Shown: one piece after another, positions 8,221 to 18,985 of the stretch
Numbering within the stretch: position 1 is the stretch's first letter
How the letters are laid out: every line of letters begins with the position of its first letter
Source: Haloplanus sp. XH21
GTDB lineage: Archaea; Halobacteriota; Halobacteria; Halobacteriales; Haloferacaceae
Length of the DNA: 64,000 nt
Reading direction: 5' to 3'
Assembly: GCF_023276355.1 (NCBI RefSeq)
Contig: NZ_JALLPL010000001.1
Coordinates: 744,001-808,000 of the forward strand
Program-made: the position numbers and the translations under genes
The notes under the pieces: model-generated
What the model saw: the letters and a program-made list of their open reading frames with translations, nothing else
Told to the model about the DNA's origin: nothing
The model's database searches: none

Positions 8221-9834
8221 ATGACACGAGACACGCCGCGCGACGACTCCGACGAGGAGACACCCACCGACGACCCGGCGGCACGCCCCGCCACCGACGG
8301 CGGCAGCGACGTCGCCGCCGGCGCCGACGAGGTTGCGCTCGATCCGTGGGGGTCCTCGACCGTCTCCGACTACCGCAAACTCTTCGACGAGTTCGGCATC
8401 GAATCTTTCGACGAGTTGCTCCCCGAGGTGCCGAGTCCGCACTATCTGATGCGGCGGGGCGTCATCTTCGGCCACCGCGACTACCGTCCCGTCGCGCGAG
8501 CGCTCCGCGAGGGCGAGGACGCGGCCGTCCTCTCCGGATTCATGCCCACCGGCGACCCCCACATCGGCCACAAACTCGTCTTCGACGAGATCATCTGGCA
8601 TCAGGAGCGCGGCGCCGACGCCTACGGCCTCATCGCCGATCTGGAGGCCCACAGCGCCCGCGGCCTCTCGTGGGACGAAATCGACGAACACGCGCGCGAC
8701 TACCTGCTCTCCCTGCTCGCGCTCGGGTTCGACCCCGAGGAGGGCGAACTCTACCGGCAGTCCACCAACCGCGAGGTGCAGGACCTCGCCTTCGAACTCG
8801 GGTCGAAAGCGCGGTTCGCGGAGTTCGAGGGCATCTACGGCTTCGACGGCGAAACCTCCGTCTCCCACATGCAGTCCGTGGTGACCCAGATGGCGGACAT
8901 CCTCTATCCCCAGCTGGACGAGCCGAAGCCGACGGTCATCCCCGTCGGCCCCGACCAGGATCCGCACATGCGCCTCGCGCGAGACGTGGCCGCGCGGATG
9001 CGCTACTTCAAGGTGACCGAGGCGTACGCCTCCTTCGAGGCCAACGCGGCGGAACGTGACCACCTCGCGGCGGCGTACGCGGCGCTCCGGGACGGCGAGG
9101 ACGATTCTCCCGTCCGGTGTGCGGCGGCAGCCGACTGGATCGAAGCCGAGATGGCGGCCGACGCCGCTCACGATTCGGTCGTCGACAAACTCCGCGCCGC
9201 CGGGAAGGAACCGCTCCGGCCCCGGGTACGCTTCCTCGACCGCAACGCGACGCCCGAGGCCTTCGACGCCCTCATCGAGGCGATTCCGGGCGAGAAGCGG
9301 CGCTACGAGGAACATATCGACGCCTTCGACATGGACCGCGCGGACGCCGAGGACCTCGCCCGCGAGGTCGAAGTCGACCACGGCGGCTTCGGGTTCATGG
9401 CACCCTCCTCCATCTACCACCGGTTCATGACTGGCCTCACCGGCGGGAAGATGTCGTCGTCGGTGCCCGCGAGCCACATCTCGCTGCTCGACGACCCCGA
9501 GGACGGCTACGACAAGGTGAAGTCGGCGACCACCGGCGGCCGCGAGACGGCGGAGAAACAGCGCGAACTCGGCGGCGAGGCCGACGACTGTCCCGTCTAC
9601 GAACTGTACGCCTACCTGCTCGCCGGCGACGACGACGAGTTCGCGACCGAGGTGTACGAGGAATGTGTCGGTGGGGAACGCCTCTGTGGCGGGTGTAAGG
9701 AACAGGCCGCCGAACTCATGCGCGAGTTCCTCGAAGACCACCAGGAGAAACGCGAGGAGATGGAGGCCGTCCTCGACGACCTGGATATCGACCTCGACAC
9801 CGATCGTCGGGGCGTCGCTGGCGACGGGCACTAG
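8221..9834 (+). CDS. trpS: Tryptophan--tRNA ligase
   Basis: A class I aminoacyl-tRNA synthetase that charges tRNA-Trp. The 537-residue protein has an acidic N-terminal extension of about 45 residues. The HIGH-type motif is PTGDPHIGHKL near residue 115 and the KMSKS-type motif is GGKMSSSVPASHI near residue 408. The central text resembles archaeal TrpRS (FGHRDYRPV, FGFMAPSSIYHRFMTGL). It begins one base after the endA stop. The gap of about 265 bp to pheS holds the Phe-rich leader ORF. Confidence 0.96.
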   Translation: MTRDTPRDDSDEETPTDDPAARPATDGGSDVAAGADEVALDPWGSSTVSDYRKLFDEFGIESFDELLPEVPSPHYLMRRGVIFGHRDYRPVARALREGEDAAVLSGFMPTGDPHIGHKLVFDEIIWHQERGADAYGLIADLEAHSARGLSWDEIDEHARDYLLSLLALGFDPEEGELYRQSTNREVQDLAFELGSKARFAEFEGIYGFDGETSVSHMQSVVTQMADILYPQLDEPKPTVIPVGPDQDPHMRLARDVAARMRYFKVTEAYASFEANAAERDHLAAAYAALRDGEDDSPVRCAAAADWIEAEMAADAAHDSVVDKLRAAGKEPLRPRVRFLDRNATPEAFDALIEAIPGEKRRYEEHIDAFDMDRADAEDLAREVEVDHGGFGFMAPSSIYHRFMTGLTGGKMSSSVPASHISLLDDPEDGYDKVKSATTGGRETAEKQRELGGEADDCPVYELYAYLLAGDDDEFATEVYEECVGGERLCGGCKEQAAELMREFLEDHQEKREEMEAVLDDLDIDLDTDRRGVAGDGH

Positions 9835-9857
9835 TCGCCCGCGAGCCGGGTTTGCAG

Positions 9858-9870
9858 AACGCTTTTGCCG
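9858..9870 (+). promoter_or_regulatory. Putative promoter box for the Phe-rich leader ORF / pheST
   Basis: A T-rich core gcttttgcc (9861-9869) lies about 26 nt upstream of the ATG at 9892. That is the spacing expected of a haloarchaeal TATA box serving a leaderless transcript. It resembles the boxes before several other genes here, for example lipA. If it is the pheST promoter, transcription starts at or next to the leader ORF and the pheS mRNA carries a 5' region of about 210 nt. Confidence 0.45.
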
Positions 9871-9891: not shown

Positions 9892-9978
9892 ATGGCGACC
9901 GACCCCGCCACGGCCGACTCGCTTGCCCGCGAAGCGACTGCACAGGGGTTCGGTTTCGGATTCTTTTTCGACGCGTAG
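9892..9978 (+). CDS. Candidate Phe-rich leader peptide upstream of pheST
   Basis: A 28-codon ORF, ATG to TAG, begins MATDPATADSLAREATA and ends QGFGFGFFFDA. Five of its last nine residues are phenylalanine (codons TTC, TTC, TTC, TTT, TTC). It lies alone upstream of pheS-pheT, which encode the enzyme that charges tRNA-Phe. A TATA-like box stands 26 nt before the ATG and a GC-rich hairpin begins right after the stop codon. The arrangement mirrors bacterial attenuator leader peptides such as PheM, where stalling at Phe codons reports low charged tRNA-Phe. The sequence facts are direct; the regulatory role is inferred, and I know of no described archaeal counterpart. Confidence 0.6.
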   Translation: MATDPATADSLAREATAQGFGFGFFFDA

Positions 9979-9996
9979 GGGCGGCGGACTCCGCCC
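9979..9996 (+). promoter_or_regulatory. GC-rich hairpin directly after the leader stop codon
   Basis: GGGCGG (9979-9984) pairs perfectly with CCGCCC (9991-9996) around a 6-nt loop. The stem begins on the base after the leader TAG, so a ribosome at the Phe codons or the stop would cover or abut it. No T-tract follows, so it does not look like a simple intrinsic terminator. Downstream, GGCTACGC occurs twice in tandem (10028-10043), followed by GGCTGCGT (10044-10051), which could offer alternative pairing. Confidence 0.4.
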
Positions 9997-10100
9997 GCGG
10001 TGGGTGACGAAACCGGTCCGTTCGACGGGCTACGCGGCTACGCGGCTGCGTGGGGCTTCGGAACTGCTAACTAACTTCGGTGGCCGTGAACAAGACAAGA

Positions 10101-11606
10101 ATGCGACTTCCGGAATCACAGGCCGCGGTGTTGGAAGCCGCGAGCGCGACGGAGGATCGAACGATCGAACAGCTAAGCGAGGCGACGAATCTCAAATCGG
10201 AGACGGTGACCGGTGCGGCGTTCGACCTCGAAGACGCGGGGCTGGTGACCGTCTCGGAGGCCGAAGCCGTCTCTCACGCGGTGACGGCGGAGGGCGAGGC
10301 CTACGCCGAGTCGGGACTGCCCGAGGTCCGTCTCTACCGCGCCGCCCTCTCGGCCGGTGCCGACGCGGAGCCAGTCTCCCTGGGCGAGGTCATCGGCGAC
10401 GCCGACCTCGACGGCGACGCGGTCGACATCGCCCTCGCCAACTACGCCCGCAAGGGGTACGGCGACATCGAGTCGGGACAGATCACCGCGGATCCGGACG
10501 CCGACCCGGACGACGACGAAGAGGCCGAGGCGCTTCACGCCCTCGTCGCCGGCGAATCGGTCGACTCGTCGGACGCGATCGACCAACTCGTGCGTCGTGG
10601 GCTGGTCGATCGACAGGAGCGATCCGTCCGGTCGGTGACGCTCACGGACGAGGGGGTGACCGCGCTGATGGAGGGCGTCGACGTCGCCGAGACGGTCGAC
10701 CGCCTCACGCCCGAGATGCTCGCCTCGGGCGAGTGGCGCGACGTGGAGTTCACCGCGTACAACGTCGAGGCCGACGCGCCCGAGACCCAGGGCGGCAAGG
10801 TCCACATCCTCCGCCAGACCGCCGAGCGCGTGAAGGACACGCTCGTCGGGATGGGGTTCCAGGAGATGGACGGCCCCCACGCCGACTCGGAGTTCTGGAT
10901 CAACGACTGCCTGTTCATGCCCCAGGACCACCCGGCGCGCACCCACTGGGACCAGTTCGCCCTCGACGTACCGCCGATGCAGGACATCCCTGACGACCTC
11001 CTCGACCGCGTTCGTGCCGCGCATCTGGACGGCGTCGGCGAGGACGGCCAGGGGTACCACTCGCCGTGGACCGAGGAGGTGGCCCGCGAGGTCGACCTCC
11101 GGGGGCACACCACCTCGCTGTCGATGCGCTACCTCTCCGGGCACGAAATCGGCGACCTCGAACCCCCGGAGCGGTTCTTCAGCGTCGAGAAGGTGTACCG
11201 CAACGACACGCTCGACCCGACGCATCTGCTGGAGTTCTTCCAGATCGAGGGCTGGGTGATGGCCGAAGATCTCTCCGTGCGCGACCTGATGGGCACGTTC
11301 GAGGAGTTCTACCAGCAGTTCGGTATCACCGACCTGCAGTTCAAGCCGCATTACAACCCCTACACCGAACCGTCGTTCGAACTGTTCGGGACGCATCCGG
11401 AGACGGGCGAACTCATCGAAATCGGCAACAGCGGGATGTTCCGCGAGGAAGTCCTCCGTCCACTCGGCGTCGAGTGTGACGTGATGGCTTGGGGGCTGGC
11501 GCTCGAACGACTCCTGATGCTCATGTACGGCTTCGACGACATCCGCGACGTGCACGGGACGCTCTGTGACCTCGAACTCCTGCGGGAGACGGAGGTGCTT
11601 CACTGA
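10101..11606 (+). CDS. pheS: Phenylalanine--tRNA ligase alpha subunit
   Basis: The catalytic subunit of the heterotetrameric class II enzyme. The 501-residue protein has N-terminal winged-helix-like repeats (RLPESQAAVLEAAS, then LSEATNLKSETV) typical of the archaeal/eukaryotic form. Its class II core includes DSEFWINDCLFMPQDHPAR (motif 1/2 region) and MAWGLALERLLMLMYG (motif 3). I chose ATG 10101, since MRLPES matches the usual start, over the upstream in-frame GTG at 10080. Its stop overlaps the pheT start (TGATG), implying translational coupling. A Phe-rich leader ORF lies upstream. Confidence 0.96.
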   Translation: MRLPESQAAVLEAASATEDRTIEQLSEATNLKSETVTGAAFDLEDAGLVTVSEAEAVSHAVTAEGEAYAESGLPEVRLYRAALSAGADAEPVSLGEVIGDADLDGDAVDIALANYARKGYGDIESGQITADPDADPDDDEEAEALHALVAGESVDSSDAIDQLVRRGLVDRQERSVRSVTLTDEGVTALMEGVDVAETVDRLTPEMLASGEWRDVEFTAYNVEADAPETQGGKVHILRQTAERVKDTLVGMGFQEMDGPHADSEFWINDCLFMPQDHPARTHWDQFALDVPPMQDIPDDLLDRVRAAHLDGVGEDGQGYHSPWTEEVAREVDLRGHTTSLSMRYLSGHEIGDLEPPERFFSVEKVYRNDTLDPTHLLEFFQIEGWVMAEDLSVRDLMGTFEEFYQQFGITDLQFKPHYNPYTEPSFELFGTHPETGELIEIGNSGMFREEVLRPLGVECDVMAWGLALERLLMLMYGFDDIRDVHGTLCDLELLRETEVLH

Positions 11607-13360
11607 TGCCCGTCGTCGACATCGACCCCGACGAACTGCGGGACCTGACGGGCCACGAGGAGAAATCGGACGAGGAGTTCATCGACGACCTGTTCGCGCT
11701 CGGATTGGAGTACGAGGGCGAGACGGAGGACGGCGAACTCCAGTTGGAGTTCGGTCCGGACCGCCTTGACCGCCTCTCCGTCGAGGGAGTCGCCCGCTCG
11801 CTTCGCTACCAGTACGGCGACGACCGCGGCGTCTACACCCCGAGTACGAACGACGCGGACTGGACCATCGTCGTCGACGAGTCGGTGCCCGACGAGCGCC
11901 CGTACGTCACCGGCGCGGTGATTCGCGGTGTCGACCTCGACGAGGCGGCGCTGGACTCCCTGATCCAGTTACAGGAGAAACTCCACGCCACGATGGGGCG
12001 CAAACGCGCCAAAGGCGCCATCGGTATCCACGACCTGACGATGCTCAAGGGCGCGGGCTACGACGCCGAGGAGATGGACGAAGGCCCCGACAGCAGTAGC
12101 GGCGGCGGGCGCCGCAACTCCATCACGTACCGCGGTATCGACCCCGAGGGCGACCGGTTCGTCCCCCTCGACGCCGACCGGGAGATGACGCCGGTCGACG
12201 TCCTCGACGACCACCCGACTGGCGAAGAGTACGCCCCCATCGTCCGCGAGTACGGCCGCTACCCCGCCATCTACGACGAAATCGGCCTGTTCTCGTTCCC
12301 GCCGGTCATCAACGGCCGCCGGACCGAGGTGTCGACCGACTCGCGGAACCTCTTCGTCGAACTCACGGGCACCGATCAGTGGACCATCGACCGGATGTGT
12401 AACGTCATCTGTTACGCGCTGGACGCCCGCGGGGCGACCATCGAATCCGTCGAGGTGGACTACCCCGACGAACGGCTGGTCCGCCCCGATTTCGACACTG
12501 AGGAGAAAACCGTCGTCCACGACCGCATCGAAGGGCTGCTCGGCATCGACCTCGGCGTCGAGGAGGCGGTCGACCTCTTCGAGCGGTCGGGACTGGACGC
12601 CATCCACGAGGAGCAAGACGACGGGACCGTCACCTACGAGGTTTCGGTGCCGCCGTACCGAACGGACGTGCTCCATCCGCTCGACTTGGTCGACGACGTG
12701 GGCCGCGCCTACGGGTTCAACGAACTCGACCCGAGCTACCCTGACGTGGCGACGGTCGGCGGCCGTCACGACCGCTCGACGCTCGAAGCCGCCGCCCGAA
12801 CGTCACTCGTCGGTCTCGGCTTCGAGGACCTGCTCAACTTCCATATGATCTCCGAGCGGGAGAACTACGAGCGGATGCGGGTCGATCCCGACACCGCCGT
12901 CGTCGGCGGCGGCGACCCCGTGACCATCACCGAACCGTACAGCGAGGACTACACGATGCTCCGGACGTGGGCGCTCCCCTCCTTGCTGATGGTCCTCGAA
13001 AACAACACCCACCGCGCGTACCCCCAGGATCTCGCGGAGATCGGCCTGGCGGCCGACGCGGACGACACGGCGAACACGGGCGTCGCGGAACACCGCACCG
13101 TCGCCGCGGCGCTCGCGCGCCACGACGCCTCCTACGAGGATGTCAAATCGCGTCTCGCGGCGCTCTGTGACGACTTCGATGTCGAGCTGGCGACGCCGGC
13201 GACGGACCATCCGACGTTCATCGACGGGCGCGCAGCCGATGTCGTCATCGACGGCGAGGCGGTCGGCGTCATCGGCGAGGTTCACCCCCAGGTGCTGGTC
13301 GACCACGATCTGGAACTCCCCGTTGCGGCGTTCGAGTTCCGGCTGGACGCGCTGGCGTAA
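11606..13360 (+). CDS. pheT: Phenylalanine--tRNA ligase beta subunit
   Basis: The beta subunit of PheRS; its B3/B4 domain normally edits mischarged Tyr-tRNA-Phe. The 584-residue length and start (MPVVDIDPDELRDLTG) fit the archaeal/eukaryotic type. The B3/B4 region is around residues 115-280 (GRKRAKGAIGIHDLTML, then INGRRTEVSTDSRNLFVELTGT). A B5-type segment follows (VPPYRTDVLHPLDLVDDVGRAYGFN), then a catalytic-like C-terminal domain. The start overlaps the pheS stop by one base. The CRISPR array begins within 90 bp after its stop. Confidence 0.95.
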   Translation: MPVVDIDPDELRDLTGHEEKSDEEFIDDLFALGLEYEGETEDGELQLEFGPDRLDRLSVEGVARSLRYQYGDDRGVYTPSTNDADWTIVVDESVPDERPYVTGAVIRGVDLDEAALDSLIQLQEKLHATMGRKRAKGAIGIHDLTMLKGAGYDAEEMDEGPDSSSGGGRRNSITYRGIDPEGDRFVPLDADREMTPVDVLDDHPTGEEYAPIVREYGRYPAIYDEIGLFSFPPVINGRRTEVSTDSRNLFVELTGTDQWTIDRMCNVICYALDARGATIESVEVDYPDERLVRPDFDTEEKTVVHDRIEGLLGIDLGVEEAVDLFERSGLDAIHEEQDDGTVTYEVSVPPYRTDVLHPLDLVDDVGRAYGFNELDPSYPDVATVGGRHDRSTLEAAARTSLVGLGFEDLLNFHMISERENYERMRVDPDTAVVGGGDPVTITEPYSEDYTMLRTWALPSLLMVLENNTHRAYPQDLAEIGLAADADDTANTGVAEHRTVAAALARHDASYEDVKSRLAALCDDFDVELATPATDHPTFIDGRAADVVIDGEAVGVIGEVHPQVLVDHDLELPVAAFEFRLDALA

Positions 13361-13445: not shown

Positions 13446-16400
13446 GCTTCAACCCCACAAGGGTCCGTCTGAAACACGGTGGGCATGGGTCACACCCCGA
13501 CGACTTCGAGGAGCTTCAACCCCACAAGGGTCCGTCTGAAACTACCGCTTGTCCCCGTCGTTCCCCGAGAGGTCGGGGCTTCAACCCCACAAGGGTCCGT
13601 CTGAAACTGCACCTTCGCGACGAGATTACGATGGCCGACGCCGCTTCAACCCCACAAGGGTCCGTCTGAAACGATCTCGACGACGGCGAACGGCTTACTG
13701 TACTCGTGCTTCAACCCCACAAGGGTCCGTCTGAAACCTTTGATTTCCTCCACGCGTTCGGGTTCGACATCCTCGCTTCAACCCCACAAGGGTCCGTCTG
13801 AAACGCGATGAGCTTGCCGTCCTCCAGTTCCTCGTACTCGCTTCAACCCCACAAGGGTCCGTCTGAAACGCCACCGTCTGTCACCCGTTGCACCGTCGCC
13901 TCGGGGCTTCAACCCCACAAGGGTCCGTCTGAAACGATTCGGAGTCGCACCTACTCCACGCCGAGACGCGAGCTTCAACCCCACAAGGGTCCGTCTGAAA
14001 CAGCAGTCACGCAGGAGTTCCACCTTCTGGTAGTGGGCGCTTCAACCCCACAAGGGTCCGTCTGAAACCCAACGGCACCCGAGACCGGCGACTTCCATGA
14101 TGTCGCTTCAACCCCACAAGGGTCCGTCTGAAACCCTCGACGACTACCGTCTCGACACATTCGTAGTGGCTTCAACCCCACAAGGGTCCGTCTGAAACTG
14201 ATCGCGAGGGTCGGTGCGGCCTCCGGTGGCGGCTTCAACCCCACAAGGGTCCGTCTGAAACGATTGAAAATCGCCTGCCGGACCGCGTGTATGATTGCTT
14301 CAACCCCACAAGGGTCCGTCTGAAACTGGATCTATCCGATCCTCGTTGGTATCGTGATGGGCTTCAACCCCACAAGGGTCCGTCTGAAACCAACCACCGG
14401 ATCAGGATGTCACCATCCAGATGACCGCTTCAACCCCACAAGGGTCCGTCTGAAACAAGCAGGCGGTGGGCGCGAAAGGGCGATCCACACGGCTTCAACC
14501 CCACAAGGGTCCGTCTGAAACCTGCCCCGGGCATCCAACCTCACCACTCACCACCATGCTTCAACCCCACAAGGGTCCGTCTGAAACGACGACGTAGTGG
14601 GTCACATCGAGCATCCCTGGCGGGCTTCAACCCCACAAGGGTCCGTCTGAAACGCGAGTACATCGATGTCAGGGACATTCACCCTGACCGAGCTTCAACC
14701 CCACAAGGGTCCGTCTGAAACGAACTGTCCCAACAAGCAACAAGCCGTGAGCAGCAGCTTCAACCCCACAAGGGTCCGTCTGAAACCCAAGACTGGCGCG
14801 TCCACGTCGAGATGGTCACGCTCGCTTCAACCCCACAAGGGTCCGTCTGAAACAGCTGCGAGGACTGTGGCGTGCCCAGACTCTGGTCGCTTCAACCCCA
14901 CAAGGGTCCGTCTGAAACCAGCGCTGCATGGGCTGTGGGAAGAGCTATCCACAAGCTTCAACCCCACAAGGGTCCGTCTGAAACCGGCGACGGGGCGCTG
15001 GATGTCGCGGGGACGACCTCGCTTCAACCCCACAAGGGTCCGTCTGAAACCCCGAGCTGCATCCGATCAGCGTCGACGACGCCCAGCTTCAACCCCACAA
15101 GGGTCCGTCTGAAACTACTGGTGACTACCCTGCGGCCGAGATTCATGATGCTTCAACCCCACAAGGGTCCGTCTGAAACTACTGGTGACTACCCTGCGGC
15201 CGAGATTCATGATGCTTCAACCCCACAAGGGTCCGTCTGAAACGCCGACACCTGTTCGTCGATGTCGTCACTGTTGTCGCTTCAACCCCACAAGGGTCCG
15301 TCTGAAACCGGCGACGACCTCCCGGACGGTGAGCCGTACCGAGCTTCAACCCCACAAGGGTCCGTCTGAAACCGTTGACCGGCGTCCACAGATACGCGTG
15401 CGAGGACCGCTTCAACCCCACAAGGGTCCGTCTGAAACGCGTCGTCTACAGAGGCTCCTGCCCCCTCGTGGAGGCAGCTTCAACCCCACAAGGGTCCGTC
15501 TGAAACGCCGCGGAGGTTAACGGCCACGGACAGCCGACGTCGCTTCAACCCCACAAGGGTCCGTCTGAAACAAATGGTGCCGTTTCCGAGTGGCTCCAGA
15601 CATGGAAGGCTTCAACCCCACAAGGGTCCGTCTGAAACACCCCGGCAACCCAGAGCATAAACAGCGCCTCGCGGCTTCAACCCCACAAGGGTCCGTCTGA
15701 AACGACGGGGATATTCGAGATTGCCTGGAGCAGCACGCGCTTCAACCCCACAAGGGTCCGTCTGAAACTTCGGCGCTCTGGCGTCGGGCGACCTCGCCGT
15801 TGGGCTTCAACCCCACAAGGGTCCGTCTGAAACAGCTCTGGACAGTACAGGCCGACGCTCTCCAGGAGGCTTCAACCCCACAAGGGTCCGTCTGAAACAA
15901 GACCTCGGCGTCGAGCTGGCGCCGGGTATCAGCGAGCTTCAACCCCACAAGGGTCCGTCTGAAACCGGGCACGGGGGCGCCGCCCGATTCGGGTTCTCGC
16001 TTCAACCCCACAAGGGTCCGTCTGAAACCTGTTGCTCCGCCGACTGACGGGCGCTTTCACCGAGATGCTTCAACCCCACAAGGGTCCGTCTGAAACGGGT
16101 AGCCAACGATGCGGGGGTAGCCATCCTCCGAGGCTTCAACCCCACAAGGGTCCGTCTGAAACTCATCGGGAGTATCCGACGACCCACGAGTTTGCAGATG
16201 GCTTCAACCCCACAAGGGTCCGTCTGAAACGGGTTCCACGCGATCATCCCGGCCGACACGCTCGCGCTTCAACCCCACAAGGGTCCGTCTGAAACTCAGT
16301 CATCGTCTATTCTGATTTCGTGTTCTCGTGCTTCAACCCCACAAGGGTCCGTCTGAAACACTCGGGTCCAGAGGGCGCGAGCGAACAGTGGCGGCTTCAA

Positions 16401-18985
16401 CCCCACAAGGGTCCGTCTGAAACCGGTATCGTATGCTTCTGGTTGGACTAGGGCACGGAGCTTCAACCCCACAAGGGTCCGTCTGAAACCCCCAGGAGGA
16501 CGTCGAGGGCAACGACTACAACCCGCTTCAACCCCACAAGGGTCCGTCTGAAACGACAAGACCTATCGCGTCGACACGTCGGGGTATGCGCTTCAACCCC
16601 ACAAGGGTCCGTCTGAAACAGTGCCACCGCGTAGGGTCATGTCTATGGCTATAGGCTTCAACCCCACAAGGGTCCGTCTGAAACGCGAATATCGGGAGCG
16701 GGGGTGGCAATTCTTTCGACGCTTCAACCCCACAAGGGTCCGTCTGAAACGCGAATATCGGGAGCGGGGGTGGCAATTCTTTCGACGCTTCAACCCCACA
16801 AGGGTCCGTCTGAAACGCGCTCGCCCAGAGTTGCGCCGTGCGGATCGCCGGCTTCAACCCCACAAGGGTCCGTCTGAAACGAGGATGGCGATCAACTGGC
16901 GGGCCGAATAGCTCCCGCTTCAACCCCACAAGGGTCCGTCTGAAACCAGGTCGACCGTGTCGACGTCCATCACCGCGACGGGCTTCAACCCCACAAGGGT
17001 CCGTCTGAAACCCACCGAGAGATAGCTGATAACTTCGATGTCTCCTCGCTTCAACCCCACAAGGGTCCGTCTGAAACATGCGCTCGATCCAGCCGATCGG
17101 CGCCGTGTCGCTCGGCTTCAACCCCACAAGGGTCCGTCTGAAACCAACCCGTTCGGAGTCGATCCGTCGGTGCCGACGGAGGCTTCAACCCCACAAGGGT
17201 CCGTCTGAAACCCGAGTCAACTACGTATCGCCGCGGACTCCCCGACCGCTTCAACCCCACAAGGGTCCGTCTGAAACCCGCCGCTGTTCGCGACGGCGCC
17301 GCATCGCTGGACCGGCTTCAACCCCACAAGGGTCCGTCTGAAACGCGCTCGATCCAGCCGATCGGCGCCGTGTCGCTCGGCTTCAACCCCACAAGGGTCC
17401 GTCTGAAACAGCGACGGGACCCGGTCGATATCTCGGACCAACACGCTTCAACCCCACAAGGGTCCGTCTGAAACGACATGTCGCAGGCGGCCGGGAGACA
17501 GCACGCGAGGCTTCAACCCCACAAGGGTCCGTCTGAAACACGAGGTGCCACAACCGCCGCCTCTACCCGCACGCGCTTCAACCCCACAAGGGTCCGTCTG
17601 AAACGCTGACACATGGGACAGCGCGACGAACAGTACTACGAGCTTCAACCCCACAAGGGTCCGTCTGAAACTCGGGCTGGGGGTCGTAACTCCGGCTGGT
17701 CTGGCCCGCTTCAACCCCACAAGGGTCCGTCTGAAACGAAGCGCGTCGGCAGTGGTCGCGTCGGTGGTGATTCGCTTCAACCCCACAAGGGTCCGTCTGA
17801 AACCGGCGGCGTTCGCGTCGGCCTCGGCCTGGATCGGGAGGCTTCAACCCCACAAGGGTCCGTCTGAAACGGGCACGATGCGGGAGCCCGTGGCTCCGTT
17901 GTCCGGCTTCAACCCCACAAGGGTCCGTCTGAAACTCACGAGGTGCCACAACCGCCGCCTCTACCCGCACGCGCTTCAACCCCACAAGGGTCCGTCTGAA
18001 ACTGCCCCAGATCGTGTTCGCATCAAGCCCGAGGGAGCTTCAACCCCACAAGGGTCCGTCTGAAACCTGTGGGCCTCCTCGTCGGTGCCTTCGCCGCGCT
18101 GCTTCAACCCCACAAGGGTCCGTCTGAAACTCGCCCGGGATCGACCCCACGCTGACGCCCTGGGTGCGCTTCAACCCCACAAGGGTCCGTCTGAAACTCG
18201 AGAGTCTCGACCCCGAGGCCACCACCAGTCGCGAGCTTCAACCCCACAAGGGTCCGTCTGAAACGCGTGGGTCTGCTACAACTGCGGCGCCGAGTTCGAC
18301 GCTTCAACCCCACAAGGGTCCGTCTGAAACGGGCGTCGACGACGGCACCGAGCTCGTCGAGGACGCTTCAACCCCACAAGGGTCCGTCTGAAACGAGGCG
18401 GCGAAGGACTACAATCGTCAATTCTTCCAGCTTCAACCCCACAAGGGTCCGTCTGAAACGGGAAACCCGAACGCTCGGTTGGTGTAGTCCGGCCAATGCT
18501 TCAACCCCACAAGGGTCCGTCTGAAACGGATTCACTGCCGACGAGCGGGCGAAAGTCACGGAGCTTCAACCCCACAAGGGTCCGTCTGAAACTACCAACC
18601 TAAACCGAGGGCGCTGGCGGCTGGCATCGCTTCAACCCCACAAGGGTCCGTCTGAAACGCGATCGTCCACGACGAGGACTGTGACCTCGCCGATGCTTCA
18701 ACCCCACAAGGGTCCGTCTGAAACGAAGCCCACAGATCATGCACGACTCCGACGCCGCGGGCTTCAACCCCACAAGGGTCCGTCTGAAACCCGCCGTGTG
18801 GGGTCGCTGGAGTACGACAATGAGCTTCAACCCCACAAGGGTCCGTCTGAAACCGCACAAAGAGCCGCCGCGATGGCCATTGCGAGGTTGCTTCAACCCC
18901 ACAAGGGTCCGTCTGAAACCAGCAGGGGAGCGGTTTGTCGCCAACCGAGCGGCGCGCTTCAACCCCACAAGGGTCCGTCTGAAAC
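13446..18985 (-). CRISPR. CRISPR array, 85 full repeats, type I-B-like repeat, no cas genes nearby
   Basis: I count 85 full 30-nt repeats, starting at 13446 and ending at 18985, with 84 spacers of 33-38 nt and a repeat period of 63-68 nt. On the plus strand each repeat begins GCTTCAACCCCACAAGGG and ends TCCGTCTGAAAC. I noticed no variant copy. On the minus strand it reads GTTTCAGACGG...GGTTGAAGC, close to the Haloferax type I-B repeat whose crRNA handle ends TTGAAGC, so crRNAs should come from the minus strand. Two adjacent spacer pairs are identical (15116-15149 with 15180-15213; 16685-16720 with 16751-16786). Two distant pairs are near-identical (17078-17114 with 17345-17379; 17540-17574 with 17936-17972). 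Cas proteins must be encoded elsewhere. Confidence 0.99.

Follow-up and report, generated by a model that had tools for sequence, protein, structure and literature searches.

Leader peptides that sense amino acids are textbook regulators in bacteria, and to our knowledge none is known in archaea. The closest comparators for the locus considered here are the pheM-pheST attenuator of E. coli and the ribosome-mediated attenuators of trp, his and pheA; bacterial auxiliary trpS genes likewise have leaders with Trp codons. The haloarchaeal pheST leader resembles pheM-pheST in that the 5′ leader of an aminoacyl-tRNA synthetase (aaRS) operon holds a short ORF rich in cognate codons, followed by a fold whose 5′ strand a stalled ribosome would leave exposed and a ribosome at the stop codon would occlude. 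It differs in being archaeal, with leaderless initiation, no SD sequence and no hairpin-plus-U-tract terminator, and in that a single conserved fold, its internal loop nearly invariant, takes the place of a clear terminator/antiterminator pair. An aaRS gene context and a proposed link to tRNA charging are shared with the T-box riboswitch, and GGUGGANCC in some species resembles the T-box sequence, but in the haloarchaeal leader specificity is carried by a coding ORF. We rejected a T-box riboswitch because the key position of the UGGN motif is C or T and there is no Rfam match; UGG–CCA pairing is lost because the pairing base is C in many species. We consider it probable that the locus is a ribosome-dependent, attenuator-like leader that matches pheST expression to the availability of charged tRNA-Phe.

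The window (the whole 64,000-nucleotide stretch of Haloplanus sp. XH21 DNA that was analysed) contains a 28-codon Phe-rich upstream ORF (uORF) between trpS, which ends at 9834, and pheS, which starts at 10101. Its translation is MATDPATADSLAREATAQGFGFGFFFDA followed by the stop, with the C-terminus GFGFGFFFDA, and both its coordinates and the five Phe among the final nine residues are as the original prediction described them. The features of the locus are as follows.

9855..9866, + strand: leader promoter, BRE/TATA-like CAGAACGCTTTT; consensus CRNAACGYTTTT at fixed spacing
9892..9978, + strand: leaderless Phe-rich leader ORF, 28 codons, stop TAG; has homologues and profile matches
9949..9969, + strand: Phe codons 20, 22, 24, 25 and 26, the predicted stall site; codon positions 1 and 2 conserved, third C or T
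9979..9984, + strand: P1 5′ strand; covariation, 63 distinct sequences
9985..9989, + strand: internal loop 5′ side, YGGAY; nearly invariant in the alignment
9990..10007, + strand: variable hairpin P2; five pairs with double changes across loci, weak in the window
10008..10012, + strand: internal loop 3′ side, YGAAA; nearly invariant
10013..10018, + strand: P1 3′ strand, CCGGTC; covariation
10060..10075, + strand: second promoter-like box GGAACTGCTAACTAAC, 41 nt before pheS; consensus GGAACYGYTAACTNAC
10101..11606, + strand: pheS, Phe-tRNA synthetase alpha; 66–83% identity to homologues in 80 haloarchaeal loci
11606..13360, + strand: pheT, beta subunit, same operon as pheS; start codon overlaps the pheS stop

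The nearest pheS among the loci compared is that of a Haloplanus MAG (83%). The tandem GGCTACGC repeats that had been noted 3′ of the leader are present in the window (10028–10051) but are not seen in relatives.

We compared the pheS loci of 80 haloarchaea from GTDB genomes with that of the window (81 in total), counting as a homologue any short ORF upstream of pheS with at least two Phe in its last nine residues. Absence of the ORF or its Phe run from relatives had been named as grounds for refutation; instead, homologues ending approximately in GFGFFF are found in 68 of the 81 loci, with the typical peptide reading M-A-S-E-P ... G-F-G-F-F-F-x(0–3). A peptide profile search gave matches in 89 of 145 Halobacteria genomes at E<0.0035, and in all 17 genomes with a known pheS position the match lies just upstream of that gene. 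Genuine copies also occur at scores weaker than this cut (L152, L161 and L162). A match in G260 (E=0.0035), a second match in G169 and a weak match in G213 were rejected, there being no such ORF at these places. The leader is present in several GTDB families of Halobacteria. Outside the haloarchaea, neither 20 regions 5′ of pheS nor the four nearest outgroup genomes (L112–L115) yielded a copy. Within the class, Halonotius, several Halorubrum and some MAGs lack it, with a decayed remnant in one case (L060); the absence in Halonotius, several Halorubrum and others is leader loss.

Two features of the peptide bear on what is under selection: (i) the middle is variable in sequence and length, and only the first residues and the Phe run are kept; and (ii) in the GFGFFF block the last three Phe codons hardly vary at positions 1 and 2, and position 3 is T in 47 of 153 codons. 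This interchange of TTC and TTT across the pheS upstream regions is the synonymous drift that the original prediction had named as support. TTT makes up 54 of 246 Phe codons in the uORFs (22%) versus 49 of 1273 in pheS (4%; Fisher p ~7e-19), an enrichment that is suggestive only, because GC3 is lower in the uORFs in general (74% versus 89% in pheS). Judged by these substitution patterns, selection acts on the amino acids of the Phe run. The run of cognate codons in a short upstream ORF, as in an attenuator, is thus conserved at the amino-acid level.

The claim that the Phe cluster exceeds chance is borne out by a stricter count. At least three Phe per 10 residues in a short forward ORF are found in 61 of the 81 pheS upstream regions, versus 0/81 on the opposite strand and 0/30 upstream of trpS2. 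The Phe run is T-rich (TTCTTTTTC), as it would be if the codons were a by-product of a T-rich terminator of the upstream gene; however, many species have TTC TTC TTC TTC, which interrupts the T run without changing the amino acids, and together with the empty opposite strand the amino-acid-level conservation already contradicts such an origin, or plain chance, to which we assign a negligible probability. It is also highly improbable that the uORF encodes a functional micropeptide. The N-terminus M-A-x-E-P/S is conserved as that idea would have it, but the leaderless start-codon context can account for this, the middle varies freely and the location of the RNA fold follows the Phe codons. Among 12 other aaRS matches in the window's genome, two or three of them without a cleanly located gene start, there is no evident cognate-rich uORF.

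The leader promoter has a rigid geometry. The box CRNAACGYTTTT starts 37 nt 5′ of the uORF ATG in 53 of 62 loci and 36–38 nt 5′ in 60 of 62; in the window, CAGAACGCTTTT starts 37 nt 5′ of the ATG, in agreement with the TATA-like box at leaderless spacing proposed originally. At this distance the transcript start falls on the ATG itself. For comparison, the haloarchaeal BRE is given as CGAAA and the TATA box as TTWT in PMC4983044. The data of that H. volcanii dRNA-Seq study list a 26-aa ORF (pI 5.9, 2772 Da) before HVO_2948 pheS (Babski et al. 2016, PMC4983044, Table 2 row 13), place pheS in the 5′-UTR class of 150–250 nt and give no additional TSS at pheS. A start upstream of the ORF and none at pheS indicate that the leader is co-transcribed with pheS; a pheS transcript start downstream of the uORF, which would have counted against the original prediction, is thus not what was mapped in H. 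volcanii. The Haloferax leaders in our locus set are 26 aa long (2792–2850 Da, with pI 5.94 in three of the five computed) and presumably match the tabulated ORF, an indirect assignment because H. volcanii is absent from the loci.

A second box, also written GGAACYGYTAAC, lies closer to pheS. Its consensus, GGAACYGYTAACTNAC, is found in 66 of 81 loci, including most of those lacking the leader, and mostly 36–46 nt 5′ of pheS. Its retention where the leader is lost suggests that a second pheS promoter may bypass the leader, and it may serve as a second promoter for other conditions; we take the box to be a promoter or regulator site, although no H. volcanii TSS is reported at pheS. A sequence similar to GGAACYGYTAACTNAC, AAACTGCTAAC, lies upstream of valS in L140. 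The frequency and promoter-like spacing of the second box would fit an arrangement in which the promoter at 10060–10075 is the usual one for pheST, with the leader transcript being either a small RNA in its own right or a minor route, as would the fact that some Halorubrum uORF promoters share the form of this box (CGAAACCGTTAAC). We regard this arrangement as unlikely, since H. volcanii dRNA-Seq detects no pheS TSS besides that of the uORF and two genomes carry the leader promoter only. In the latter, G008 and G060 (one genus; loci L108 and L106), the uORF stops ~36 nt 5′ of pheS; as the second box is missing, transcription of pheS must come through the leader. The fold and the usual spacing described below are also absent, and the leader mechanism there would have to differ or be simpler. 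The evidence for a single transcript thus comes from published H. volcanii dRNA-Seq and from these two genomes without another promoter-like box, rather than from the window's organism.

A conserved RNA element begins at, or a few bases from, the uORF stop. It consists of helix P1 (for example GGUCGG/CCGACC), a symmetric internal loop (YGGAY/YGAAA) and the variable hairpin P2. When 63 distinct sequences are aligned by fitting to the model, standard pairs fill 90.7% of the pair cells and 147 cells are double changes, compared with at most 47.4% paired when the partner strands are slid; P1 in an unfitted MAFFT alignment is 80.8% paired versus at most 45.1% slid. Rfam holds no relevant match to the element, and no further convincing copy was found in the genome, where the next-best model matches score far lower and are apparently coding sequence. 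A kink-turn was rejected for this element because the internal loop is symmetric and lacks a 3-nt bulge. In the window, P1 has one mismatch and is absent from the MFE structure, and a local hairpin at 9979–9996 (GGGCGG-CGGACT-CCGCCC), directly after the stop, competes with P2. This is the GC hairpin drawn in the original prediction. It is real but confined to the window, and it shares the P1 5′ strand with the larger helix–loop–hairpin, which is the conserved fold; the expectation of a conserved stem among relatives therefore held for the covarying P1/P2 element but not for the hairpin first proposed.

The YGGAY/YGAAA loop is nearly invariant beyond the needs of pairing, as would be expected for a protein or tertiary contact, and this could point to autoregulation in which PheRS or another protein binds the fold, with the uORF chiefly gating access to it. 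Such a scheme leaves the Phe codons unexplained, however, and G008 and G060 retain the Phe ORF without the fold; we find it distinctly unlikely.

The position of the fold is better described by its distance from the Phe codons than from the stop. After exclusion of two loci with a mis-assigned motif, the last Phe codon lies 15–20 nt from the loop in 65 loci (SD 1.5). The stop follows the last Phe after zero to three codons, and the stop-to-loop distance compensates (r=-0.78). None of 20,000 permutations is as tight (p<5e-5), and the result holds on the 13 unique combinations (p=0.00075). Given this distance, the footprint of a ribosome on the Phe run would reach about to the base of P1, and P1 would be covered by a ribosome at the stop. 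Together with the covariation, the distance constraint speaks to the placement of the fold; an effect of the ribosome on folding is our extrapolation. In a masking calculation P1 has a mean probability of 0.38 when the ribosome is stalled; the value of 0 for a ribosome at the stop is imposed by the masking itself. Downstream pairing of the P1 3′ strand has a probability of 0.13 in the stalled state versus 0.37 at the stop, where the loss of P1 again follows from the masking.

These elements suggest the following model of an attenuator-like leader. RNA polymerase would start at the uORF ATG and a ribosome would initiate at the leaderless end of the transcript. Under a shortage of Phe-tRNA, this ribosome would stall on the Phe run, leaving the downstream RNA free to form P1, the internal loop and P2; once the fold has formed, transcription would proceed into pheST or the leader RNA would be spared. 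When Phe-tRNA is plentiful, the ribosome would reach the stop, its leading edge would cover the P1 5′ strand and the fold would be blocked. The output of pheST would then drop, most likely because transcription terminates in the untranslated gap with the help of a factor (FttA/aCPSF1) or a hairpin. We infer the stalling on the Phe run, the state that is ON and termination as the output. Transcription–translation coupling is supported in H. volcanii.

The locus departs from a pheM-type attenuator at the output step. A conserved, co-transcribed Phe-codon leader is present, but the longest T run from the uORF stop to pheS is at most 3 in all 68 loci, and no hairpin plus U-tract intrinsic terminator was found in these intervals. 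Among H. volcanii terminators are T stretches, a further motif and, in one case put to the test, a hairpin (59% termination; PMC7237163). According to one proposal, aCPSF1/FttA terminates transcription in a factor-dependent way that competes with ribosome coupling (PMC8116511). It is possible, though we would not expect it, that the leader peptide is a sensor with a post-transcriptional output, in which the stalled ribosome or the fold alters pheS translation, processing or stability and no termination takes place. The lack of a terminator-like T run in 68/68 leaders would agree with this, and the two genomes in which the uORF stops 36 nt from pheS without a fold would suit translational coupling. 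In most loci, however, the distance from uORF to pheS is 93 to 236 nt, which argues against tight coupling, and the fold adjoins the uORF and not the pheS start. SD sequestration is not the route, because SD motifs are reported to be non-functional at H. volcanii 5′-UTRs.

We favor the attenuator-like leader because the alignments point to (i) a conserved GFGFFF run with synonymous drift and a variable middle; (ii) a leaderless promoter at a fixed 37-nt spacing; and (iii) a covarying fold with a constrained distance from the last Phe to the loop. The H. volcanii TSS at the leader and none at pheS, the two genomes without the second box, the support for transcription–translation coupling in H. 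volcanii and the Trp-rich trpS2 leaders described below, as an independent second case, add to this preference. Against it weigh the lack of a U-tract terminator, the promoter-like box kept without the leader, the loss of the leader in some lineages, the two leader genomes without the fold or the usual spacing, and the mismatched window P1 that is absent from the MFE structure.

Auxiliary trpS2 genes on haloarchaeal plasmids and chromosomes are preceded by leaderless ORFs with Trp clusters (MVSTSHANCWRWHAFREVDSIAV, MQSAPAWRWRTQTPGADSV..., MTTAPWRWWSPASGADSP...), such as CWRW and APWRWW. Leaders with at least two Trp are found in 26 of 30 loci (L164–L166, L174–L203), compared with 7/30 on the opposite strand under a criterion looser than that used for Phe. 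The promoter box lies mostly at 37–38 nt, and in many loci an inverted repeat surrounds the Trp codons, its sequence changing while pairing is kept. As in the bacterial auxiliary trpS leaders, the Trp clusters lie within a hairpin; the haloarchaeal leaders differ in being archaeal and leaderless. The window's genome has no trpS2. The Trp-rich leader is likely the 23-aa ORF before the Trp-tRNA ligase HVO_A0127 of H. volcanii (Babski et al. 2016, PMC4983044, Table 2 row 12). We lean toward a haloarchaeal class of leader-peptide attenuators for aminoacyl-tRNA synthetases, including at least pheST and trpS2, with leaderless mRNAs and no intrinsic terminator.

Rows 12 and 13 of that table are evidently the same objects as the Trp and Phe leaders, and the table itself mentions no Phe or Trp enrichment, conservation, RNA fold or regulatory reading (PMC4983044). 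The existence of the H. volcanii pheS uORF was thus on record in 2016. What appears to be new, as far as the open-access literature searched goes, is the reading given to it here, its conservation, the fold and the parallel with trpS2. In that literature we found no description of a leader-peptide attenuator in archaea and, as the original prediction supposed, none for an archaeal pheST. If the proposal is correct, it would be the first leader-peptide attenuation in archaea and a direct use of transcription–translation coupling. According to PMC8576121, nearly nothing is known of functional coupling in archaea. A leader whose Phe codons, leaderless start and 3′ fold persist across haloarchaeal families would be a ready natural reporter for it, and the genetics available in H. 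volcanii make a direct test feasible.

On the far side of the operon the window holds a large CRISPR array (~13446–18600), with pheT on one side and a valS-like gene on the other. Its repeat is GCTTCAACCCCACAAGGGTCCGTCTGAAAC with a spacing of ~65 nt, and some adjacent spacers are duplicated (16655–16786 and 15086–15215).
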